IMG/VR virus record: IMGVR_UViG_3300020478_000010
Coordinates: 1 to 55,641 of that record
Length of the DNA: 55,641 bases
Reading direction: 5' to 3' (one strand)
Source: a virus
Made by a program: the position numbers and the translations under genes. The notes under the pieces were generated by a model that made no database searches, had not been told where the DNA came from, and was given only the letters and a program-made list of their open reading frames with translations. Positions 1,878 through 52,034 of the stretch are shown one piece after another; position 1 is the stretch's first letter, and each line of letters opens with the position of its first letter.

Positions 1878-1953
1878 GTCCCGTTCGTCTAGTGGTCTAG
1901 GACATCACCCTTTCAAGGTGACAACGTAGGTTCGAATCCTGCACGGGATACCA
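1878..1953 (+). tRNA. tRNA-Glu (anticodon TTC)
   Basis: A 76-base cloverleaf. The acceptor stem GTCCCGT pairs with ACGGGAT (first pair G-U). The anticodon stem TCACC/GGTGA holds the loop CTTTCAA with anticodon TTC, reading GAA and GAG. A GGTTCGAATCC T-arm is present, and the 3' end has an encoded ACCA. All expected parts are visible and intact. It is the only tRNA found in the window. Confidence 0.96.
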
Positions 1954-1984: not shown

Positions 1985-2230
1985 ATGTCAAGTGTCGAAT
2001 GCCAAAAATGTGGTGCAGACTATCCGTCTGTACGTAGAGAAGTCGCAAAGTATTTCCCTAATCTTTGCATTAATTGTGCTACTGATATGGATTATCTTAT
2101 CGAGATTCCTTATTCTTCAGTACCAACTCATAAAGGTGCGTATTTCCCGGTGAGGACTAAAAAGGACGTCTACAACCTTACGTGCAATCCCAAAAATTAT
2201 GACCATGAGCATTCGGAGAATCTATCGTGA
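1985..2230 (+). CDS. Small zinc-ribbon protein
   Basis: An 81-aa protein with CxxC at the N terminus (CQKC) and a second CxxC about 20 residues later (CINC), a probable zinc ribbon, followed by a stretch containing HKGAYFPVRTKKDV. AGGAG precedes the ATG by ten bases. Its stop overlaps the start of the wall hydrolase (TGATG), indicating coupling. The function is unknown. Confidence 0.7.
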   Translation: MSSVECQKCGADYPSVRREVAKYFPNLCINCATDMDYLIEIPYSSVPTHKGAYFPVRTKKDVYNLTCNPKNYDHEHSENLS

Positions 2231-2653: not shown

Positions 2654-2682
2654 TTGGTTAGCAATGTCTTATTTGGTATAAT
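2654..2682 (+). promoter_or_regulatory. Early promoter copy 3 (TTGGTT-N17-TATAAT)
   Basis: TTGGTT (2654-2659), 17 bases, then a perfect TATAAT (2677-2682) preceded by TGG. It is the strongest match of the three early copies. It begins right after the hydrolase stop and would drive the coupled operon 2715-7201. Confidence 0.88.
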
Positions 2683-2714
2683 ACTTCAAATCAAAAATTA
2701 ACAAGGAGATAAAA

Positions 2715-3155
2715 ATGCCTAGAAAATACAAAGATGGCGATATCGTCAAGGTGTACTACAGCACACGCAGTAGACACCTCGCTTTTATTGGCAGAGTCAC
2801 AGACTATGTCGATAAGAAATATCGTGTCCTTTATCTGTGTGAATCCAGTGGTAATGAACGTGGCACATACAGATTCTCAAGTGACATGATATTTTCATGT
2901 TGGGTTTATGAAATTTCTGAACTACCCAACGACCATGAGTATATGTACAATGTGCAGAAATCAATCAAACGTATGTATTCAAGTTTCTGCGAAGATATGC
3001 TCGTAAAAAGAAATTGGTATTCCACTCCTGAGAACAAAGTAACTAAAATGGTTTACCAAGCATTCAAAGTAAAACGACTATTAGACTGGGATTTCACAAG
3101 GGTATTTCCAGTTGTACGATTTAGCGAGAGAGGAGAATACTTCTATGATTATTAG
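2715..3155 (+). CDS. Hypothetical early protein
   Basis: A 146-aa protein, first gene of the operon driven from 2654. The start has a clear AAGGAG. The N-terminal 60 residues look like a small beta barrel (DGDIVKVYY..., then a VTDYVDKKYRVLYL segment). The rest is rich in aromatic and basic residues. There is no family that I recognise. It overlaps the next gene by 11 bases. Confidence 0.7.
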   Translation: MPRKYKDGDIVKVYYSTRSRHLAFIGRVTDYVDKKYRVLYLCESSGNERGTYRFSSDMIFSCWVYEISELPNDHEYMYNVQKSIKRMYSSFCEDMLVKRNWYSTPENKVTKMVYQAFKVKRLLDWDFTRVFPVVRFSERGEYFYDY

Positions 3156-3705
3156 CCCTTACAAAGTAAATGATGTTATCAAACGTAGTGATATTTCTAC
3201 AGGTAACATCTTCACCTACCAAAATGGTAATGGCACTCGTTATGCCTCACTTGGCAGAAACAACGGCTTTTACTATGGTTTTAAACTTCAAAGTTTTGCA
3301 GAGTACACGCCAAGAACAGCTACGAGTTCTGACGACCCTGTAATCCACAAGCCTATTAAAGCAGTGGTTACACCTGTAACTTCACAGACTGTAGATAAGA
3401 TGTGTGTGATTGTCGGCTATTTTACTCTTGACCTTGCATTTGACAATATGCCAGAGATACGAGCCTACGACGGCACGTCCGTTCCATCATTTGGTAAACT
3501 TATATCTACACCAAATTCTGTAAACAAAGATGGTAAACCGCATTTGTTTATGAATCTCGGTCCGTCTGTACACACCGACAGAGGCATTGACTTGTATCCA
3601 TTATCTGAAGGTGGAAACGTCAAAGTGCTAGAGTTCGGTAATCTACTGGCTATCCGTGGCGACGTTACTTTTATTACTCATGAACAGAAGGAGAAAAAAG
3701 CATGA
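3145..3705 (+). CDS. Hypothetical early protein
   Basis: A 186-aa soluble protein, probably mostly beta structure. I chose the ATG at 3145 because GAGAGGAG lies just upstream, in place of a longer start at 3112. It is coupled to the next gene by an ATGA overlap. No family recognised; its neighbours suggest a part in the same early function as the 693-aa zinc protein and the peptidase. Confidence 0.7.
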   Translation: MIISPYKVNDVIKRSDISTGNIFTYQNGNGTRYASLGRNNGFYYGFKLQSFAEYTPRTATSSDDPVIHKPIKAVVTPVTSQTVDKMCVIVGYFTLDLAFDNMPEIRAYDGTSVPSFGKLISTPNSVNKDGKPHLFMNLGPSVHTDRGIDLYPLSEGGNVKVLEFGNLLAIRGDVTFITHEQKEKKA

Positions 3706-5783
3706 GAAAAACTAAACTCAAAAAAGTGATTGAGGAGGCTGAGGAGGTTAACTCCTCTATCCTTGCTTTCGCTAAATCACACAAAATACCGAATGAGTAT
3801 TTTGAGTATATCCCAGTTGAAGCACACCCTGTTGTTGTTTCAGCTTCTCGTAAACTAAAAATCTTAGCTCCACACTTTGAGAAACTTGTTTCAGATATTA
3901 TTGTTGGTATCAGTAGCTTGAGACACTCATCAGCCGTGTTGAGCAAAGAGCATGATAACCGAGACCTTTGTCATGCACATAACTACACACTAACTGGCAT
4001 TGCCATATGGTCTAAAGACAACCAAACAGTATGGTCTTATCCTAATCTGTGGGTAACTAAAAGACACGTTTACGCAAGTGCCTATCAGTATCAAAATGAC
4101 GGACTTGCTACAGAGATTGCTTTGTTTCCAAAAGTTACTGCTAGACTCCGTGATAAAATTAATCTTGATATATCAAATGGTAGGACAGAGTCATGGACTC
4201 CAGTTAGTCGTGGCATCAAACGACTAGGTGCAAAGCGTGAACAATCTTTGTCAGGCTATCTTGCCAAATGTCTGATGTTTAGTGGTAAGAGTATGCAAAG
4301 CATTCATGGTGGTTCTCAAATCGTTGATGCAATCTCTGCAAAAGTTCATGAGTTGTATGCACCCACTGAGTTTCACTTTGCTGATACTGTAGAAGATATA
4401 CGTTATATGTACAAAGTAGTTAGCAGAGAAACCCCTACTTCATGTATGGATAGCAAGCATTCATTTGGTCTCAGGTACGAAGATGGTTCAGAGGCTAGAC
4501 CAGTTGACTTCTATGCTCATTGTCCAATCACACGTGGCGCCTATCTTAAACGTGGCGATACTGTTCTTGCTCGTACAATCTGTTGGCTGGATACTTTGAC
4601 CGACAGATGGTTCTTTGGCAGGGTGTATGGCAACAGGAGTGCTTATCAGACTAGCTTGATAAACAAACTCAAAGCAGAGATAAATCCTGAAACAAACTAT
4701 GGTTACACACAGTTATCTGACGACAGAGATTGGTTTCCCGGTCGTGGCAACTATGACTATGCTCCGTATCCAAATCGAGCAGTTGATACGTTTACTGTGC
4801 CGTATGCTCGGACAGATGATGACTACGAAGTTGCACTCATACCATATCTTGACCAACTGCCGTTCAACTCAATCAAGGTTGACGAAGGTAAGGGCGAGTG
4901 GACATATCACATCAATCACTCTGACAACCACGAGAAAGGCAATCACCCTATTGATGTTCGTGCTACCTGTGGTTACTATTATCCTGAGGGTGGTAGCAGT
5001 GATGACTATATCTACTGTGCTGAATGTGATACTGAACATTGGCATGAAGATGCTCTAGAAATTTCAGGTGAATATTTCTGCGACTCACACTGTGCCGTTG
5101 ACTATGGTTTGTGTCTCTATGTGCAATCAGATAATTCTCGTTGGCGACGACGAAGTCAATTACATGAGATTATACCTGTAGCAGATTATATTCCTGCCTT
5201 TGGTCAAGATGCGTTGTTTAGCAACTATCAGGCTGCGATAAATAATATGAATACTGCTATTTATCGTCCATCTTTGTTTGCGGAAACAGAGCTTGATTTT
5301 TTTGTCTATATTCGCAGGATAAGCTTACCATTTCTTGGTAACGAGTTACTTGTAGACGAAGATTCAAGTATGGCAAAAGATTATCAGGGACTTGGCAATG
5401 TTCATTTGTATCATCACCCTAGAGATGTGTATCTTGCAGAAACTAAAAATGTTGACATGACTTTTACTAAATCAGTTGTGAGCCAAATGACTCCAGATTA
5501 TCTTACTAAGATACAATGTAGACACGCAAATACAACGAGTATCATTGATACTGTATCTTGTACTCGTAACATTGAAGATAATTTACATATCAAAGACTCT
5601 TATAAGCTAATATCACATACTAGATATCGCAGTGACAATATACTTGACTTTGACATGGATAGAGAAGACAAAGCAATCTTTGAAGCTTTCTCTCAAAAAC
5701 TAGGAGATTTACCAAAACTACTTACTGGTGAACTTCCAAAACTAGAATTAATTGTAACAACCAATAAAGGAGAAACCAAATGA
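3702..5783 (+). CDS. Large early protein with zinc fingers
   Basis: A 693-aa protein, the largest of the early arm. A central region contains SCMDSKHSFGLRY, PVDFYAHCP and a GDTVLARTICW...FFGRVYG block. I recall similar blocks in uncharacterised proteins of other phages, but no assigned function. Around residues 440-475 there is a cysteine/histidine cluster (YCAEC, HWHED, YFCDSHC) that looks like a LIM- or treble-clef-like zinc finger. The gene overlaps both neighbours by four bases, so it is made together with the peptidase. No enzyme motif is visible. Confidence 0.75.
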   Translation: MRKTKLKKVIEEAEEVNSSILAFAKSHKIPNEYFEYIPVEAHPVVVSASRKLKILAPHFEKLVSDIIVGISSLRHSSAVLSKEHDNRDLCHAHNYTLTGIAIWSKDNQTVWSYPNLWVTKRHVYASAYQYQNDGLATEIALFPKVTARLRDKINLDISNGRTESWTPVSRGIKRLGAKREQSLSGYLAKCLMFSGKSMQSIHGGSQIVDAISAKVHELYAPTEFHFADTVEDIRYMYKVVSRETPTSCMDSKHSFGLRYEDGSEARPVDFYAHCPITRGAYLKRGDTVLARTICWLDTLTDRWFFGRVYGNRSAYQTSLINKLKAEINPETNYGYTQLSDDRDWFPGRGNYDYAPYPNRAVDTFTVPYARTDDDYEVALIPYLDQLPFNSIKVDEGKGEWTYHINHSDNHEKGNHPIDVRATCGYYYPEGGSSDDYIYCAECDTEHWHEDALEISGEYFCDSHCAVDYGLCLYVQSDNSRWRRRSQLHEIIPVADYIPAFGQDALFSNYQAAINNMNTAIYRPSLFAETELDFFVYIRRISLPFLGNELLVDEDSSMAKDYQGLGNVHLYHHPRDVYLAETKNVDMTFTKSVVSQMTPDYLTKIQCRHANTTSIIDTVSCTRNIEDNLHIKDSYKLISHTRYRSDNILDFDMDREDKAIFEAFSQKLGDLPKLLTGELPKLELIVTTNKGETK

Positions 5784-7201
5784 CTGGTTCTTATTTCTAT
5801 AATATAAAACCCAAAGTAGAACTTGACGAGACAACTCGTCTACAACGAGGCGACGATAAGATGAATACTCTTCTATTCGACTTACTAACCAATGCTTCAC
5901 CAAATGGCACAGAGAAAGTTATTGCTGACATCATTACATCTTATGTCAATAAAAATTTACCTGCCAAGGCATATGAGATTATACCTGACAAGGAAGGAGA
6001 AAATCTTATTATTCGTGTCGGCAAAGCTAACAATGTAATGTTCAGTTCGCACATGGACACAGTTCATACAAGTAACAGACATAATATTAATCTTCATGTT
6101 ACTGATGAGAATTATGTCTATGGCTCTATCGACGATATGAGCAAACTGTATTACAATGATGATGACGAACACGTTACTCAACATCAGATTGAACAAGAGG
6201 CTAAAAAGCATGGTGCGTCATACGACCACTACATTATGTGGAGTGGCAAACTCTATGGTTCAGATGATGACTTTGACGGGTGGTCTGACCTCAACATGGA
6301 ATATACACACAAGCATGAAGTTATCACCAAAAATTCTGTACTTGGTGCTGATGACAAACTAGGTTGCTACATCATGTGTCGCATGATTGAGAAACGAGTT
6401 CCCGGTCTGTATGTCTTTCATGTAGGCGAAGAGTGTGGTGGTATCGGTTCTACTTATCTTTCTACATCTCGTAAAGAACTATTTACTAATATTGATTACT
6501 GTATTGCTTTCGACAGAAAAGGCTACAATGATGTCATCTATCGTCAATCAGGTGGTCAATGTTGTTCAAACATCTTTGCTAAAACTTTGTGTGATGAAAT
6601 CAACAAGTATCTTCCTCCGAAAGAAAAAGCTGAACCATCACCAAACGGCTCATTTACTGACTCAGCAAACTATACTGACTTGATTGCCGAGTGTACTAAT
6701 ATGCCAGTTGGTTACTTTGACCAACACAGTTCAGGAGAACACTTTGACCTTGAATGGCTTGAACGATATGCGATACCTGCTTACACCAGTATCAAATGGT
6801 CTTCCCTGCCTGTCAAGAGAAATCCTGACGAGCCAAAAGTCAACAACTACACGAGCCGTTTTAGTAGTTACAACAGACATGGCTATCGTGGTTACAATTC
6901 AGGCTACGGAGACTACCAAAATTCTTTTTGGGACGAAGACGAGTTTGAGCAACGACACTCTAGGACAAAGTCAACAAACAGAAACAAGCATCAATCAACT
7001 CTTGACAAGATAAAACATCTTGTAGAAAACAAGGTTGATAAGTATGAACCTGATATTGGCTTTGAAAGTGAAGAAACTCATGGACAAAGAGTTCAACGTG
7101 TGCTATATTCGTTTATAGCTTCTGACTTAACTTTAGAAGAGATTGCTGAACTTGTTGTAGACACCTATGACAATGCACAGGCAAATCATTATGATTGGTA
7201 A
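5780..7201 (+). CDS. Di-zinc metallopeptidase, M20/M28/M42 type
   Basis: A 473-aa protein with a full set of co-catalytic zinc peptidase motifs: SHMDTVH (H91, D93), GADDKLG (D191/D192), GEECGGIGS (E217, E218), AFDRKG (D245) and HSSGEH (H316, H321). The family removes residues from peptide ends or splits small amide substrates. The spacing between D245 and H316 leaves no room for the usual M20 dimerisation domain, so the fold may be nearer M28 or a minimal M20. About 85 residues are inserted between the first two motifs. The last 120 residues are disordered, rich in Tyr, Asn, Arg and Gly. It is the last gene of the coupled early operon; the substrate is unknown. Confidence 0.85.
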   Translation: MTGSYFYNIKPKVELDETTRLQRGDDKMNTLLFDLLTNASPNGTEKVIADIITSYVNKNLPAKAYEIIPDKEGENLIIRVGKANNVMFSSHMDTVHTSNRHNINLHVTDENYVYGSIDDMSKLYYNDDDEHVTQHQIEQEAKKHGASYDHYIMWSGKLYGSDDDFDGWSDLNMEYTHKHEVITKNSVLGADDKLGCYIMCRMIEKRVPGLYVFHVGEECGGIGSTYLSTSRKELFTNIDYCIAFDRKGYNDVIYRQSGGQCCSNIFAKTLCDEINKYLPPKEKAEPSPNGSFTDSANYTDLIAECTNMPVGYFDQHSSGEHFDLEWLERYAIPAYTSIKWSSLPVKRNPDEPKVNNYTSRFSSYNRHGYRGYNSGYGDYQNSFWDEDEFEQRHSRTKSTNRNKHQSTLDKIKHLVENKVDKYEPDIGFESEETHGQRVQRVLYSFIASDLTLEEIAELVVDTYDNAQANHYDW

Positions 7202-7233
7202 GTCATAAGCTGTTTATCTCTTGTTTGACCCTT

Positions 7234-7271
7234 ATCCCTCATCTGCTTTTGCAGGTGGGGGATTTTTTTTT
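7234..7271 (+). terminator. Strong rho-independent terminator
   Basis: A 13-bp stem (7234-7246 with 7251-7263, two GU pairs) with a TTTT loop, followed by a run of T. It ends the early operon. The next promoter's -35 begins two bases after it. Confidence 0.93.
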
Positions 7272-7272
7272 G

Positions 7273-7301
7273 TTGACAGATTAATTTTAATATGCTAAAA
7301 G
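7273..7301 (+). promoter_or_regulatory. Replication promoter, second family (TTGACA-N17-TAAAAG)
   Basis: A perfect TTGACA (7273-7278), 17 bases, TAAAAG (7296-7301). The segment TA-N3-TAAAA twelve bases after TTGACA is shared with 11393 and 55144. The -35 is canonical but the -10 is not, which would suit a promoter needing an activator or a modified host polymerase. It drives primase, helicase and DNA polymerase. Confidence 0.75.
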
Positions 7302-7329
7302 CAAGCTACTTGCCGAGGGGGTACACCAT

Positions 7330-8106
7330 ATGGATAAGCTAACTAAATTTATTTTAGCACATTCTCCTAATGAGGGAATGTCTTTTAGAACTAACTGCCC
7401 AATGTGTGGTGGTCGAAACACATTTACAATTTCCAAACTACAAAGTAGATTATTATGGAACTGTTACAAAGCCAGTTGTAAAATTCGTGGCACAAAAGAA
7501 ACAGACAGAACAAAGCATGATATCGTGCAGAAGTTGCAAAACTATCATCCTTCTTTCTATCATAATTTTCAAATCCCTGATTATTTCACATCAGTCACAA
7601 ATAATGACAGAGCCTTGCGTTATTTAAAAAATAATAATTGTATAGATGCTTACGAAAATCGCCTTGCTAATATCATGTACGACCCTAAACAAGATAGAGT
7701 TGTGTTTATTGTAAAAGACGGAGTTCACATTGTTGACGCAATAGGTAGAAGTTTAAATTATAAAGTTAAACCAAAATGGTATAGATATGGTAAATCAGAA
7801 AAGTTATTTATTTGTGGCGATTCACAAGATGCTATACTTGTAGAAGATGCGGCAAGTGCTTGTGCTGTGTCTAAAATATTTACAGGGGTAGCTTTGTTAG
7901 GCACAAACTTAAAACACGCAGACCTCACATTTCTTAAGAAATTTCACAAAGTTCACATCTGTCTTGACCCTGATGCTACAAGAAAGTCGCTTGACATACA
8001 AAAGTATTTGTGCTATCTTGTTCCTAGTAATGTAATAAGGATAAAAGATGATTTAAAATATTTTGGGTCACAGGAGATTAAAAAATTAGTATCGAACAAC
8101 AGCTGA
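7330..8106 (+). CDS. DNA primase (zinc finger plus TOPRIM)
   Basis: A 258-aa T7-gp4-like primase lacking the helicase part. The N terminus has a zinc-binding motif (CPMCGG, then C and C in NCYKASC). The C-terminal half carries TOPRIM elements: a conserved Glu in LVEDAASACAV and the DxD in HICLDPDA. It lays RNA primers at the fork and would work with the separate helicase encoded next. Its 3' end overlaps the proposed helicase start by 22 bases. Confidence 0.88.
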   Translation: MDKLTKFILAHSPNEGMSFRTNCPMCGGRNTFTISKLQSRLLWNCYKASCKIRGTKETDRTKHDIVQKLQNYHPSFYHNFQIPDYFTSVTNNDRALRYLKNNNCIDAYENRLANIMYDPKQDRVVFIVKDGVHIVDAIGRSLNYKVKPKWYRYGKSEKLFICGDSQDAILVEDAASACAVSKIFTGVALLGTNLKHADLTFLKKFHKVHICLDPDATRKSLDIQKYLCYLVPSNVIRIKDDLKYFGSQEIKKLVSNNS

Positions 8107-14126: not shown

Positions 14127-14280
14127 AGTTGTTATTAAGATTATAGCAGATGTAGAAACAAAAGAATTTGTTCTTGACAAAGAAGAATTGCCTTATATTT
14201 TAGAAGATATATTAATAGATTTATTACATGAAATATCAGGCGTAAAAACAAAAGATATAACAGTAAAGGTAGTAAAATGA
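14107..14280 (+). CDS. Small hypothetical protein (57 aa)
   Basis: A short frame from ATG 14107 to TGA 14280 fills the gap between the DUF3310 gene and the reductase. It overlaps the first by 20 bases and the second through ATGA. The peptide begins MQKNTDKVVI and ends ITVKVVK, with an acidic helical centre. The tight overlaps at both ends, typical of this operon, support it as a real gene. Function unknown. Confidence 0.6.
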   Translation: MQKNTDKVVIKIIADVETKEFVLDKEELPYILEDILIDLLHEISGVKTKDITVKVVK

Positions 14281-16202
14281 ACGTAACAAATCTCCCGACA
14301 TATTATCAACAATTTATTCATAAATCTCGCTATGCTCGTTGGGTAGAAAGTGAAAACAGGCGTGAAGAATGGGATGAAACTATTAGTCGTTATATGGCAT
14401 TTATGAGTGCCCATCTTATGGAAAAGCATGACTATAAAATAGATAACAAATTATATCATCAGTTGTATGAAGCTATCGTAAAACAGGATATTATGCCATC
14501 TATGCGTTGTGTTATGACAGCAGGTAAAGCTTTAGAAAGAGACAATACTGCAGGATATAACTGTTCATACCTGCCTGTAGATGACCCTAAGTCATTTGAT
14601 GAGGCTATGTACATACTAATGTGTGGCACAGGCGTTGGTTTTTCTGTTGAAAGAAATTATGTTAACAAGTTGCCCGAAGTGCCGGAACAACTATTTAGAG
14701 CAGAAGAAATTATCATAGTAAACGACAGTAAAGAAGGCTGGGCAAAAGCATTACGCAAGTTATTAGCTTTACTATGGTCTGGTGAAATACCAAACTGGGA
14801 TTTAAGCCGTGTACGTCCTGCAGGTTCTATACTTAAAACATTTGGTGGTCGTGCATCAGGTCCTGCACCTTTAGAAAGCTTGTTTAATTTTATTGTATTG
14901 ACATTTAAAAATGCAAGTGGCAGAAAATTATCTAGTTTAGAATGTCATGATATTATGTGCAAGGTTGGCGAAGTAGTTGTATCAGGGGGTGTAAGACGGT
15001 CTGCTATGATTAGTTTATCTAATTTATCTGATGACAGAATGCGTCATGCAAAAACTGGCGAGTTTTATAAATTACAACCACAACGACAAATGGCTAATAA
15101 TTCTGTAGCTTACACAGAAAAACCTGACATGAAGACATTTTTACGTGAATGGTTGTCCTTGATTGAGTCTGGTACTGGTGAACGTGGTATGTTTTATAGA
15201 GGTGCTGCAAAAAGTAAAGCAGAAGAAAATGGCAGAAGAAATAGCGATTGGGATTTTGGAACTAATCCATGTTCAGAAATAATACTGCGTCCTTACCAAT
15301 TCTGTAATTTATCCGAAGTTATTGTAAGAGGCGACGACACTATAGACGATATATCAAAGAAAGTAGAACTGGCTACTATACTTGGTACTTTCCAATCAAC
15401 ACTTACAAACTTTCCGTATTTAAGAAAGATATGGCAAAAGAACACAGAAGAGGAAAGACTTCTTGGTGTATCATTAACTGGTATCATGGATAATAGTATA
15501 ATGAATGGTCGTGAAGCAGATAATTTGAGCAAAATACTGCAAGAGTTGCGTGAAGTTGCTATTGACACAAACAAAGAGTTTGCTGAAGTGTTAAACATAA
15601 ATCAATCTACTGCTATAACTTGTGTTAAACCAAGTGGCACAGTTTCACAACTCACAGATGCTGCATCAGGTATACATGCACGGCATAGCCAATATTATAT
15701 TAGAACTGTTCGTGGTGATAAAAAAGACCCAATCACACAATTTATGATGGAAAATAATATACCTTGGGAAACAGATTTGTGGAATAGTAACAACGCTGTA
15801 TTTAGCTTTGCTATTAAATCACCTGAAGGTTGTATAACAAGTAGTGATATGACTGCTCTTGAACAACTAGAGTTTTGGAAAGTGTACGCTGATAATTGGT
15901 GTGAACACAAACCATCTATTACAGTATCAGTTGGTGCAGAAGAATGGTTAGAAGTAGGAGACTGGATATACAAAAACTTTAATATTGCATCAGGTCTTTC
16001 TTTTCTACCAAGAAGTGAGCATGTATATCAACAAGCACCATATCAAGAATGTTCTAAAGAACAATACAATAGTTTAGTTAAAACTATGCCAACAGAAATA
16101 GAGTGGACAGAATTGACAAAGTATGAAAAAGATGATAACACAGTTGGGTCGCAGACACTTGCGTGTTCAGGTGATAGCTGTGAAGTAGTGGATATTACGT
16201 AA
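14277..16202 (+). CDS. nrdJ: Ribonucleotide reductase, class II (B12-dependent)
   Basis: A 641-aa monomeric class II reductase, which makes deoxynucleotides from ribonucleotides using adenosylcobalamin. Seen motifs: CGTGVGFSVER, SGGVRRSAMISLSNLSD, the active-site NPCSEIILRP (near residue 330), CVKPSGTVSQL, and a C-terminal cysteine pair (ACSGDSCEV) that re-reduces the enzyme. The length is somewhat below the usual 700 or so. It allows DNA synthesis from host RNA pools; the cofactor must come from the host, which implies a B12-using host. ATGA and TAATG overlaps couple it to its neighbours. Confidence 0.94.
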   Translation: MNVTNLPTYYQQFIHKSRYARWVESENRREEWDETISRYMAFMSAHLMEKHDYKIDNKLYHQLYEAIVKQDIMPSMRCVMTAGKALERDNTAGYNCSYLPVDDPKSFDEAMYILMCGTGVGFSVERNYVNKLPEVPEQLFRAEEIIIVNDSKEGWAKALRKLLALLWSGEIPNWDLSRVRPAGSILKTFGGRASGPAPLESLFNFIVLTFKNASGRKLSSLECHDIMCKVGEVVVSGGVRRSAMISLSNLSDDRMRHAKTGEFYKLQPQRQMANNSVAYTEKPDMKTFLREWLSLIESGTGERGMFYRGAAKSKAEENGRRNSDWDFGTNPCSEIILRPYQFCNLSEVIVRGDDTIDDISKKVELATILGTFQSTLTNFPYLRKIWQKNTEEERLLGVSLTGIMDNSIMNGREADNLSKILQELREVAIDTNKEFAEVLNINQSTAITCVKPSGTVSQLTDAASGIHARHSQYYIRTVRGDKKDPITQFMMENNIPWETDLWNSNNAVFSFAIKSPEGCITSSDMTALEQLEFWKVYADNWCEHKPSITVSVGAEEWLEVGDWIYKNFNIASGLSFLPRSEHVYQQAPYQECSKEQYNSLVKTMPTEIEWTELTKYEKDDNTVGSQTLACSGDSCEVVDIT

Positions 16203-51368: not shown

Positions 51369-52034
51369 TTATTTCTCCTTAGCATATAAATTGTTAAATA
51401 CTCTAGCAGTGTCCTCAACATAGTTGGGGTCTTGCTTTGAGTGATGAGTCCATTGACTCGGTACAAAATCAGGTGGACCTTCACCTGTTACAAACCATGC
51501 AGGATTTGTCACCCTTACACGATTATTCGGTAACGCTACTATGTTACCTGTCCATTTTCCTGCATCCATTAATTCTAACACATGACTCTGTTTGTGTTGT
51601 GCAGGGTCATCAGCTACTTCAGTATCCGTATAGTCAATAGTAAAATAATACTTTGCCGGATAAAACTGGTTATCTATTTTTGCCTGCCAAGGACAAGGCG
51701 TTGCTCTATTCAATACAAAAACCGAATGATGGTGCGATTGGCAATCCCAAGGCTGAGCCAAATATGTAGGCAAAGGTTCTGCCCATTCATCATATGGTGT
51801 ATCTCCTACAAGGGCAGTTAGTGGCATTCTCGCCCACATAGCACCCCCGTGTACATTCTCTTCTTCATCGCAACCTGTAAACAATATCTGAAAACTTAAT
51901 GTTTTCATTGGTAAGGTTGTTACTGCTACAGCCATACCATGTAAAAACTCGCCATGGTATCGCTGAAAATTGGTCGTATATTCTCTACGAACCCATACCT
52001 TAAAATAAGGTATGTTACTTGTTATATAGTTCAT
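51369..52034 (-). CDS. Hypothetical protein with many aromatic and His residues
   Basis: A 221-aa folded protein, unlike its small basic neighbours. Notable parts are LFTGCDEEENVHGGAMWARM, QPWDCQSHHHSVFVLN and YYFTIDYTDTEVADDPAQHK. The HHH and scattered acidic residues could bind metal, but the set matches no enzyme I know. No family assigned. Confidence 0.68.
   Translation of the reverse strand: MNYITSNIPYFKVWVRREYTTNFQRYHGEFLHGMAVAVTTLPMKTLSFQILFTGCDEEENVHGGAMWARMPLTALVGDTPYDEWAEPLPTYLAQPWDCQSHHHSVFVLNRATPCPWQAKIDNQFYPAKYYFTIDYTDTEVADDPAQHKQSHVLELMDAGKWTGNIVALPNNRVRVTNPAWFVTGEGPPDFVPSQWTHHSKQDPNYVEDTARVFNNLYAKEK

Follow-up and report, generated by a model that had tools for sequence, protein, structure and literature searches.

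Which function do four overlapping genes serve that precede the replication genes of a marine podovirus? The question is raised by a 55,641-base stretch of DNA (hereafter the window), which is the whole IMG/VR virus entry IMGVR_UViG_3300020478_000010 and in which genes A (146 amino acids [aa]; 2715-3155), B (186 aa from the ATG at 3145; 3145-3705), C (693 aa; 3702-5783) and D (473 aa; 5780-7201) follow one another on the plus strand. A sequence-only reading of this DNA had described them as an insulated early operon that combines a zinc-finger protein (C) with a complete metallopeptidase (D), and had proposed a role in host takeover or defence counteraction. Three facts go beyond that reading: C and D form a widespread gene pair, C has a predicted core of GNAT type, and the pair is associated with genes for transfer RNAs (tRNAs) that resemble tRNA-Glu. 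The C-D pair together with the tRNA suggests a previously undescribed phage system for attaching and removing amino acids. The locus is best read as encoding a tRNA-dependent transfer of aminoacyl groups together with a peptidase to match, a reading that we regard as quite possible yet short of probable.

The association of C with D is the most extensive of these observations. Gene C is located directly upstream of D in 69 of the 80 IMG/VR peptidase loci retrieved by profile searches and in 136 of 155 further peptidase loci, a set that partly repeats contigs of the first; many of the remaining loci of this second set are on contigs that end close to the peptidase. At the pair loci the ends of both genes usually overlap or almost touch. 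Seven of ten bacterial-genome hits contain the pair, as do Minorna, a phage of E. coli (CPT_Minorna_049 and 048), and F19, a phage of Klebsiella; the pair-bearing groups also include the KP34-like phages, Phimunavirus and Maculvirus. In VP93 (Vibrio), Peat1 (Pectobacterium), C171 and Ep4 (Pseudomonas) and Pasto (Rhizobium) the gene preceding the peptidase aligns with C and shares its invariant motifs SCM, P..Y, R, YG, PY and C. Both KP34-like equivalents, the hypothetical protein p10 and the putative peptidase p11, have been reported as core genes (PMC4411677). Finding these relatives required alignment-based searches: neither C nor D, used as a single-protein query, matched anything in IMG/VR, and phage genomes gave no hit to C by tblastn or to the region by megablast. 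In the open-licence literature we found neither the pair described as a system nor a link to tRNA, and an earlier description is possible; the passages found in a jumbo-phage review (PMC7824862) contain no mention of the peptidase family or the pair. The identification of C with a confirmed toxic product of a KP34-like phage screen was rejected, because the products have 69, 182 and 146 aa and none of them is C (PMC7291057).

This conservation has exceptions. The peptidase occurs without an adjoining C in some jumbo-phage contigs and in Thermus phage P23-45, and a few contigs contain a C-like gene elsewhere, away from the peptidase. Three jumbo-phage contigs with a peptidase and no C harbor a similar 129-aa gene just upstream (L036 6958-7347, L059 4804-5193, L066 6254-6643), whose pattern ...NDxLTxE...DLWFHAKGVPGSH... 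identifies it as a different recurrent peptidase neighbor. In L030 (5112-7759), L034 (5211-7751) and L091 (5070-7623), C is present as two tandem copies or halves in front of a single peptidase, and the peptidase of C171 (L005 5899-6701) is annotated in two pieces, gp21 and gp22, which reflects a broken gene or a sequencing error. Free splitting of the four genes among related phages would have spoken against a dedicated module; C and D are rarely split, but A and B were seen in one marine lineage only.

Gene D encodes a peptidase that is complete, as had been claimed. Residues H91, D93, D191/D192, E217/E218, D245 and H316 are invariant in a comparison with four other phage peptidases, and they correspond to the two-metal pattern of clan MH (HxD, D, E-E, D, H), which comprises the metal ligands and the catalytic acid. 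The profile assignment of D to phrog_4191 (E 9e-63) places it among phage peptidases such as KP34 p11, VP93 gp7 and PhiM1_10; D retains all metal residues of this family and differs by a longer middle insert and a C-terminal extension. Among solved structures, the D profile matches peptidase T (3gb0, E 8e-10) and M42 aminopeptidases. The residue pattern is thus shared with the peptidase T, M42 and M28 families of clan MH, with scores that remain below the curated cut-offs (PepT-like, 22.7 versus 274 bits; M42, 21.1 versus 23.2 bits). The spacing of 70 residues between D245 and H316 is too small for the lid domain of M20 peptidases. D is best called a two-metal exopeptidase of the clan-MH type (PepT/M42/M28). 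Activity on a conjugate, which the sequence-only reading had envisaged, is compatible with these findings, with a chemistry that we infer.

The zinc-finger character of C was likewise borne out by its relatives. The zinc-ribbon-like cysteines Cys439, Cys442, Cys460 and Cys464 (5016-5093, plus strand) are all present, and within an alignment of 54 members Cys439 and Cys442 are invariant and Cys464 is nearly so. The other invariant residues are Cys248, Arg291, Pro381, Asp384 and Gly424, the first of which belongs to the motif Ser247-Cys248-Met249 (4440-4448, plus strand) of this “SCM” family; Ser247 and Met249 are conserved in at least 90% of the members. AlphaFold returned a good core for the window protein and a far better model for the compact relative L054, with a mean predicted local distance difference test (pLDDT) score of 89.6. 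The core at residues 220-340 (4359-4721, plus strand; pLDDT mostly above 80-90) has top PDB matches that are all GNAT proteins, and the Foldseek PDB matches listed for both models are exclusively GNAT-superfamily enzymes. The list for L054 is rich in enzymes that use aminoacyl-tRNA, i.e., FemX, MprF, the peptide synthases Sba18 and Sbb17, and ATE1, and a BFVD fold search with C produced weak mixed hits with some acetyltransferases among them. The coenzyme A (CoA)-binding loop between strand 4 and helix 3 (Q/R-x-x-G-x-G/A) is not conserved in C and varies in length, so that tRNA users fit the protein better than acetyltransferases. No Pfam or NCBIfam family of known function matches C, some members match PHROGs of unknown function, and a PDB sequence search gave chance hits only. 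The predicted structures make a GNAT-like C probable, and we infer from them that it may use aminoacyl-tRNA.

The link to tRNA emerged from the flanks of the pair. Counting one locus per cluster, the interval from 2 kb upstream of C to 1 kb downstream of D contains 22 Glu-like and 4 other tRNA genes, all on the same strand, and the rest of the flanks contains 6 and 18, respectively; the Fisher p values of 4e-5, and of 1.4e-4 after 60% clustering, are both optimistic, since the limits of the interval were set after a first look and one locus can contribute several tRNAs. A covariance model of the acceptor, D and T arms detected copies at a density of 8.3 per 100 kb in the first 2 kb upstream and 6.5 per 100 kb in the first 1 kb downstream; the 843 kb that lie farther downstream gave none on the same strand. 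Six HMO-type genomes without the pair contained no R1 match, a result that we counted in favor of the tRNA link. The anticodon arm is abnormal in 29 of the 42 copies parsed with a simple script (6- or 4-base loops, no U33, extended arms), one of them for the missing U33 alone. A seven-pair acceptor stem is found in 35 of 43 copies and the CCA end is encoded in 41 of 43. Given this combination of a retained acceptor stem, D arm, T arm and CCA end with an abnormal anticodon arm, the RNAs look chargeable and unfit to decode, as far as can be judged from their sequences. Long D-loop insertions of tens to about 150 bases occur in L249 (4957-5185 and 6150-6281), L146 (6091-6207) and L178 (2350-2465), and the acceptor, D-stem and T arms of these genes still match. 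Immediately upstream of C, L029 harbors three tandem tRNA-Glu-like genes (5161-5535), each with its own abnormal form of the anticodon arm.

In the window itself ARAGORN predicts a single tRNA, a tRNA-Glu located upstream of the module (1878-1953, plus strand), which folds into a cloverleaf with a TTC anticodon, a canonical seven-base anticodon loop and an encoded CCA end and is possibly the amino-acid donor of the module. The same kind of tRNA is found upstream in L013 and L014, and the relatives have either a tRNA-Glu at a similar place or a tRNA that combines a Glu-like D arm with a CCA anticodon. The latter lies just upstream of A in L016 (4916-4989), L021 (2638-2711), L023 (1799-1872) and L024 (2794-2867), and it may be a tRNA-Glu of changed identity. 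Its classification as an ordinary tRNA-Trp was set aside because of the Glu-like D arm, with charging by tryptophan still possible.

In the converse test a DNA pattern for the tRNA class with 6-base loops was run over 2.9 million viral contigs, with no protein used. It matched ten contigs, and C and D are found close together in all ten, with E-values for D from 1e-75 to 1e-145; four of the ten had not been used in making the pattern, and one of these four looks almost identical to a contig that had. In two contigs about 8 kb and about 18 kb separate the pair from the nearest abnormal tRNA, so that physical proximity does not fully account for the co-occurrence. A control set of 47 contigs with ordinary tRNA-Glu yielded no clear relative of D and two weak partial matches (E about 1e-20); many of these contigs are fragments, as are some of the test contigs. 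BLAST searches with two of the tRNAs in isolates revealed no pair-bearing isolate with an abnormal tRNA; the matches are large phages with tRNA-Glu annotations, and the one that was checked is placed inside a big tRNA array.

These observations can be combined into the following tentative scheme. C would be a GNAT-like transferase without the usual CoA-binding loop that uses aminoacyl-tRNA as the source of an activated amino acid, most likely glutamate, and passes this residue to a target in the infected cell. The donor would be a phage-encoded tRNA-Glu-like RNA, often unfit to decode, in some phages and the tRNA-Glu of the host in others. D would remove or trim the added residue, or expose the receiving site, and A and B may set the target. 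Several results weigh against this scheme. The Foldseek E-values for C range from 1e-3 to 1e-1 with template-modeling scores near or below 0.5, none of the Pfam matches of the 54 members is a GNAT acyltransferase family (Acetyltransf or FemAB type), and hhalign of the C core with FemAB-like proteins detected no similarity and did no better than a negative control. FemX-type enzymes have two GNAT domains; Foldseek and secondary structure identify one GNAT-like region in C and no second domain. The canonical tRNA of the window could be an ordinary tRNA in this phage, the copies with a CCA anticodon suggest that the amino acid may sometimes differ from glutamate, and the near/far statistics are optimistic for the reasons given above. 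Finally, a tRNA-Glu-like gene is nearby in 25 of 104 clusters, leaving about three quarters of the lineages without one, and VP93, Peat1, C171 and Ep4 lack a tRNA-Glu-like gene genome-wide; the tRNA-Glu of the host would serve in such lineages if the model is right.

A more specific version of the transfer scheme envisages a dedicated conjugation, in which a charged non-decoding RNA derived from tRNA-Glu supplies the residue, C, as a new class of GNAT-like zinc protein, marks a host or phage target and D edits or reverses the mark; it is conceivable but already rather doubtful. The explanations that dispense with such a transfer differ in what they leave unaccounted for. If C were a zinc-binding adaptor or scaffold that cooperates with the protease D in inactivating a host protein or a defence peptide, no tRNA step would be needed and the tRNAs would be separate cargo. 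The completeness of D, the position of the pair before the replication genes and the lack of a tRNA near the pair in most lineages all agree with this proposal, which explains neither why the abnormal tRNA was found only in pair-bearing contigs nor the GNAT-like core of C, and we consider it unlikely. The same core, together with the tRNA-Glu-like partners and again the placement before the replication genes, would suit a toxin of the TacT/AtaT type that modifies charged host tRNA and stops translation, the phage tRNAs being resistant copies or decoys. However, toxins of that type depend on acetyl-CoA and C has no conserved CoA loop, non-decoding tRNAs cannot rescue translation, and D has no obvious role, all of which renders this mode of action improbable.

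Two further explanations detach the tRNA or C from the pair. The tRNAs could act as decoys for, or sensors of, host anticodon nucleases and accompany the pair only because both are anti-defence cargo, given that altered anticodon arms would escape normal cutting and that cargo genes often cluster. Co-occurrence in ten of ten contigs, with the tRNA about 8 and 18 kb off in two of them, and extended arms and D-loop insertions that are unexpected in mimics of tRNA-Glu make this very improbable. The resemblance of D to peptidase T and M42 aminopeptidases would also be in agreement with a recycling of host peptides to amino acids for the phage, with C as an unrelated housekeeping or structural partner. 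For recycling, a constant companion whose Cys/Arg/zinc core is invariant in 145 clusters would not be required, and of all explanations considered here it is the one to which we give least credence. Aminoacyl transfer by C, with D as the matching peptidase, continues to be the reading that we prefer.

The organization of the module supports most of what had been concluded from the sequence alone. The overlaps of 11 (A/B), 4 (B/C) and 4 bases (C/D) are as described, and they are retained in the relatives, with 11 bases for A/B in L013, L014, L023 and L024, 4 bases for B/C in most of them and 4 or 1 for C/D; chance is excluded as an explanation of this conservation. A search for the four-gene order elsewhere, as had been proposed, recovered the same genes in the same order, with A preceding B, in eleven related contigs (L013-L021, L023, L024), of which L013 and L014 are almost identical; L022 ends inside C. 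A and B belong to no known family, an alternative start of B at the TTG at 3112 is possible, and A, B and C have no match to any family with a standard replication or structural function, in accordance with the earlier statement. The intrinsic terminator at the end of the module (7234-7271, plus strand), with a stem of 13 pairs (7234-7263; seven G-C) followed by eight T, exceeds in length every other one found in the first 10 kb; a terminator is also located 3' of D in most relatives.

The upstream boundary is less sharp. The designation as the strongest early promoter is not fully supported for the site at 2656-2682 (plus strand), since the extended -10 element TGGTATAAT (2674-2682) is preceded by a poor -35 box, TTGGTT, and the motif TGNTATAAT is present in 5 copies in the window versus 5.4 expected, i.e., not above chance. 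A promoter as such is plausible because a TATAAT-like box is found at the same place in several relatives (TATAAT in L015, L016, L023 and L024; TATACT in L021). Insulation of the operon is only half right: the terminator closes the module, but the unit may begin before A, because A overlaps the gene for an 81-aa zinc-ribbon protein in L013. In the window this gene (1985-2230, plus strand), whose product has a weak match to the DksA-like zinc finger phrog_54, is possibly the first gene of the transcription unit; it is kept as upstream neighbor in 11 relatives with 50-54% identity. A cell wall hydrolase (Hydrolase_2, E 1e-27; 2227-2652) is located between the zinc-ribbon gene and A, and it is placed farther upstream in the relatives. 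In the gap between terminator and primase (7263-7330), a promoter-like TTGACA ... TATGCT precedes a TTGCCGAGGGG element kept in L016-L024; the replication operon probably has its promoter or leader here.

Polymerase and gene order identify the window as a marine podovirus of the HMO-2011 type. The family A DNA polymerase of the window has 47% identity to that of Pelagibacter phage HTVC033P (99% of the length aligned) and 39-42% to those of HMO-2011 (40%, 99% of the length) and the Roseobacter CRP phages, and the order primase-helicase-polymerase is the same as in the HMO-2011 group. At the position that A-D occupy in the window, the HMO-type reference relatives contain an integrase or small uncharacterized genes. 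Elsewhere the window encodes a ribonucleotide reductase (14277-16202; phrog_367, E 3e-184) and a ferredoxin-family protein (51369-52034; phrog_3704, E 5e-27). A and B, found only in the HMO-type marine lineage, are lineage-specific, fast-evolving partners of the pair. Between related contigs the identity of A, B and C is mostly 25-55%, compared with 62-93% for primase, helicase and polymerase and intermediate values for D; helicase and polymerase by themselves have 69-93%, against 25-50% for A-C. The ratio of nonsynonymous to synonymous substitution rates is mostly 0.2-0.45 for A-C versus 0.02-0.15 for the replication genes, with one contig pair uninformative due to almost no substitutions; these ratios indicate that all compared genes are under purifying selection and that A-C change fast. 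Such change is as expected for proteins that meet variable host factors, and a role in host takeover or anti-defence, which had been proposed before, may apply, favored by two observations, the position before the primase and the fast divergence of A-C. Known defence and anti-defence modules resemble A-D as sets of multiple unknown proteins before replication genes; none of the PADLOC models matches A-D.

Among known systems, the FemX, MprF and ATE1 transferases come closest to C in predicted fold and in the lack of a conserved CoA loop. C has no detectable sequence similarity to them, possesses an invariant SCM cysteine and a zinc ribbon, and differs by its single GNAT-like region, its peptidase partner and its location in phages. 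Staphylococcal FemABX enzymes use a dedicated tRNA-Gly, and the dedicated tRNAs of some pair-bearing genomes, seemingly not meant for decoding, represent a further likeness to FemX-type systems, with tRNA-Glu-like molecules in place of tRNA-Gly. The p10-p11 genes of KP34-like phages are the same pair in the same order before the primase, but these phages lack A and B, and the members tested showed no tRNA.

Although much work has been devoted to KP34-like and related phages, two of their conserved pre-replication genes are still without a known role. The proteins of the pair, annotated as “hypothetical protein” and “peptidase”, are spread over hundreds of phages including lytic podophages of E. 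coli and Klebsiella. If the proposed aminoacyl transfer is true, it would represent a new phage way of marking molecules in the infected cell, and it would explain why some phages keep tRNAs that are seemingly unable to decode. Even if the chemistry turns out to be another, the pair and its tRNA partner would constitute one defined system rather than two unrelated unknowns.

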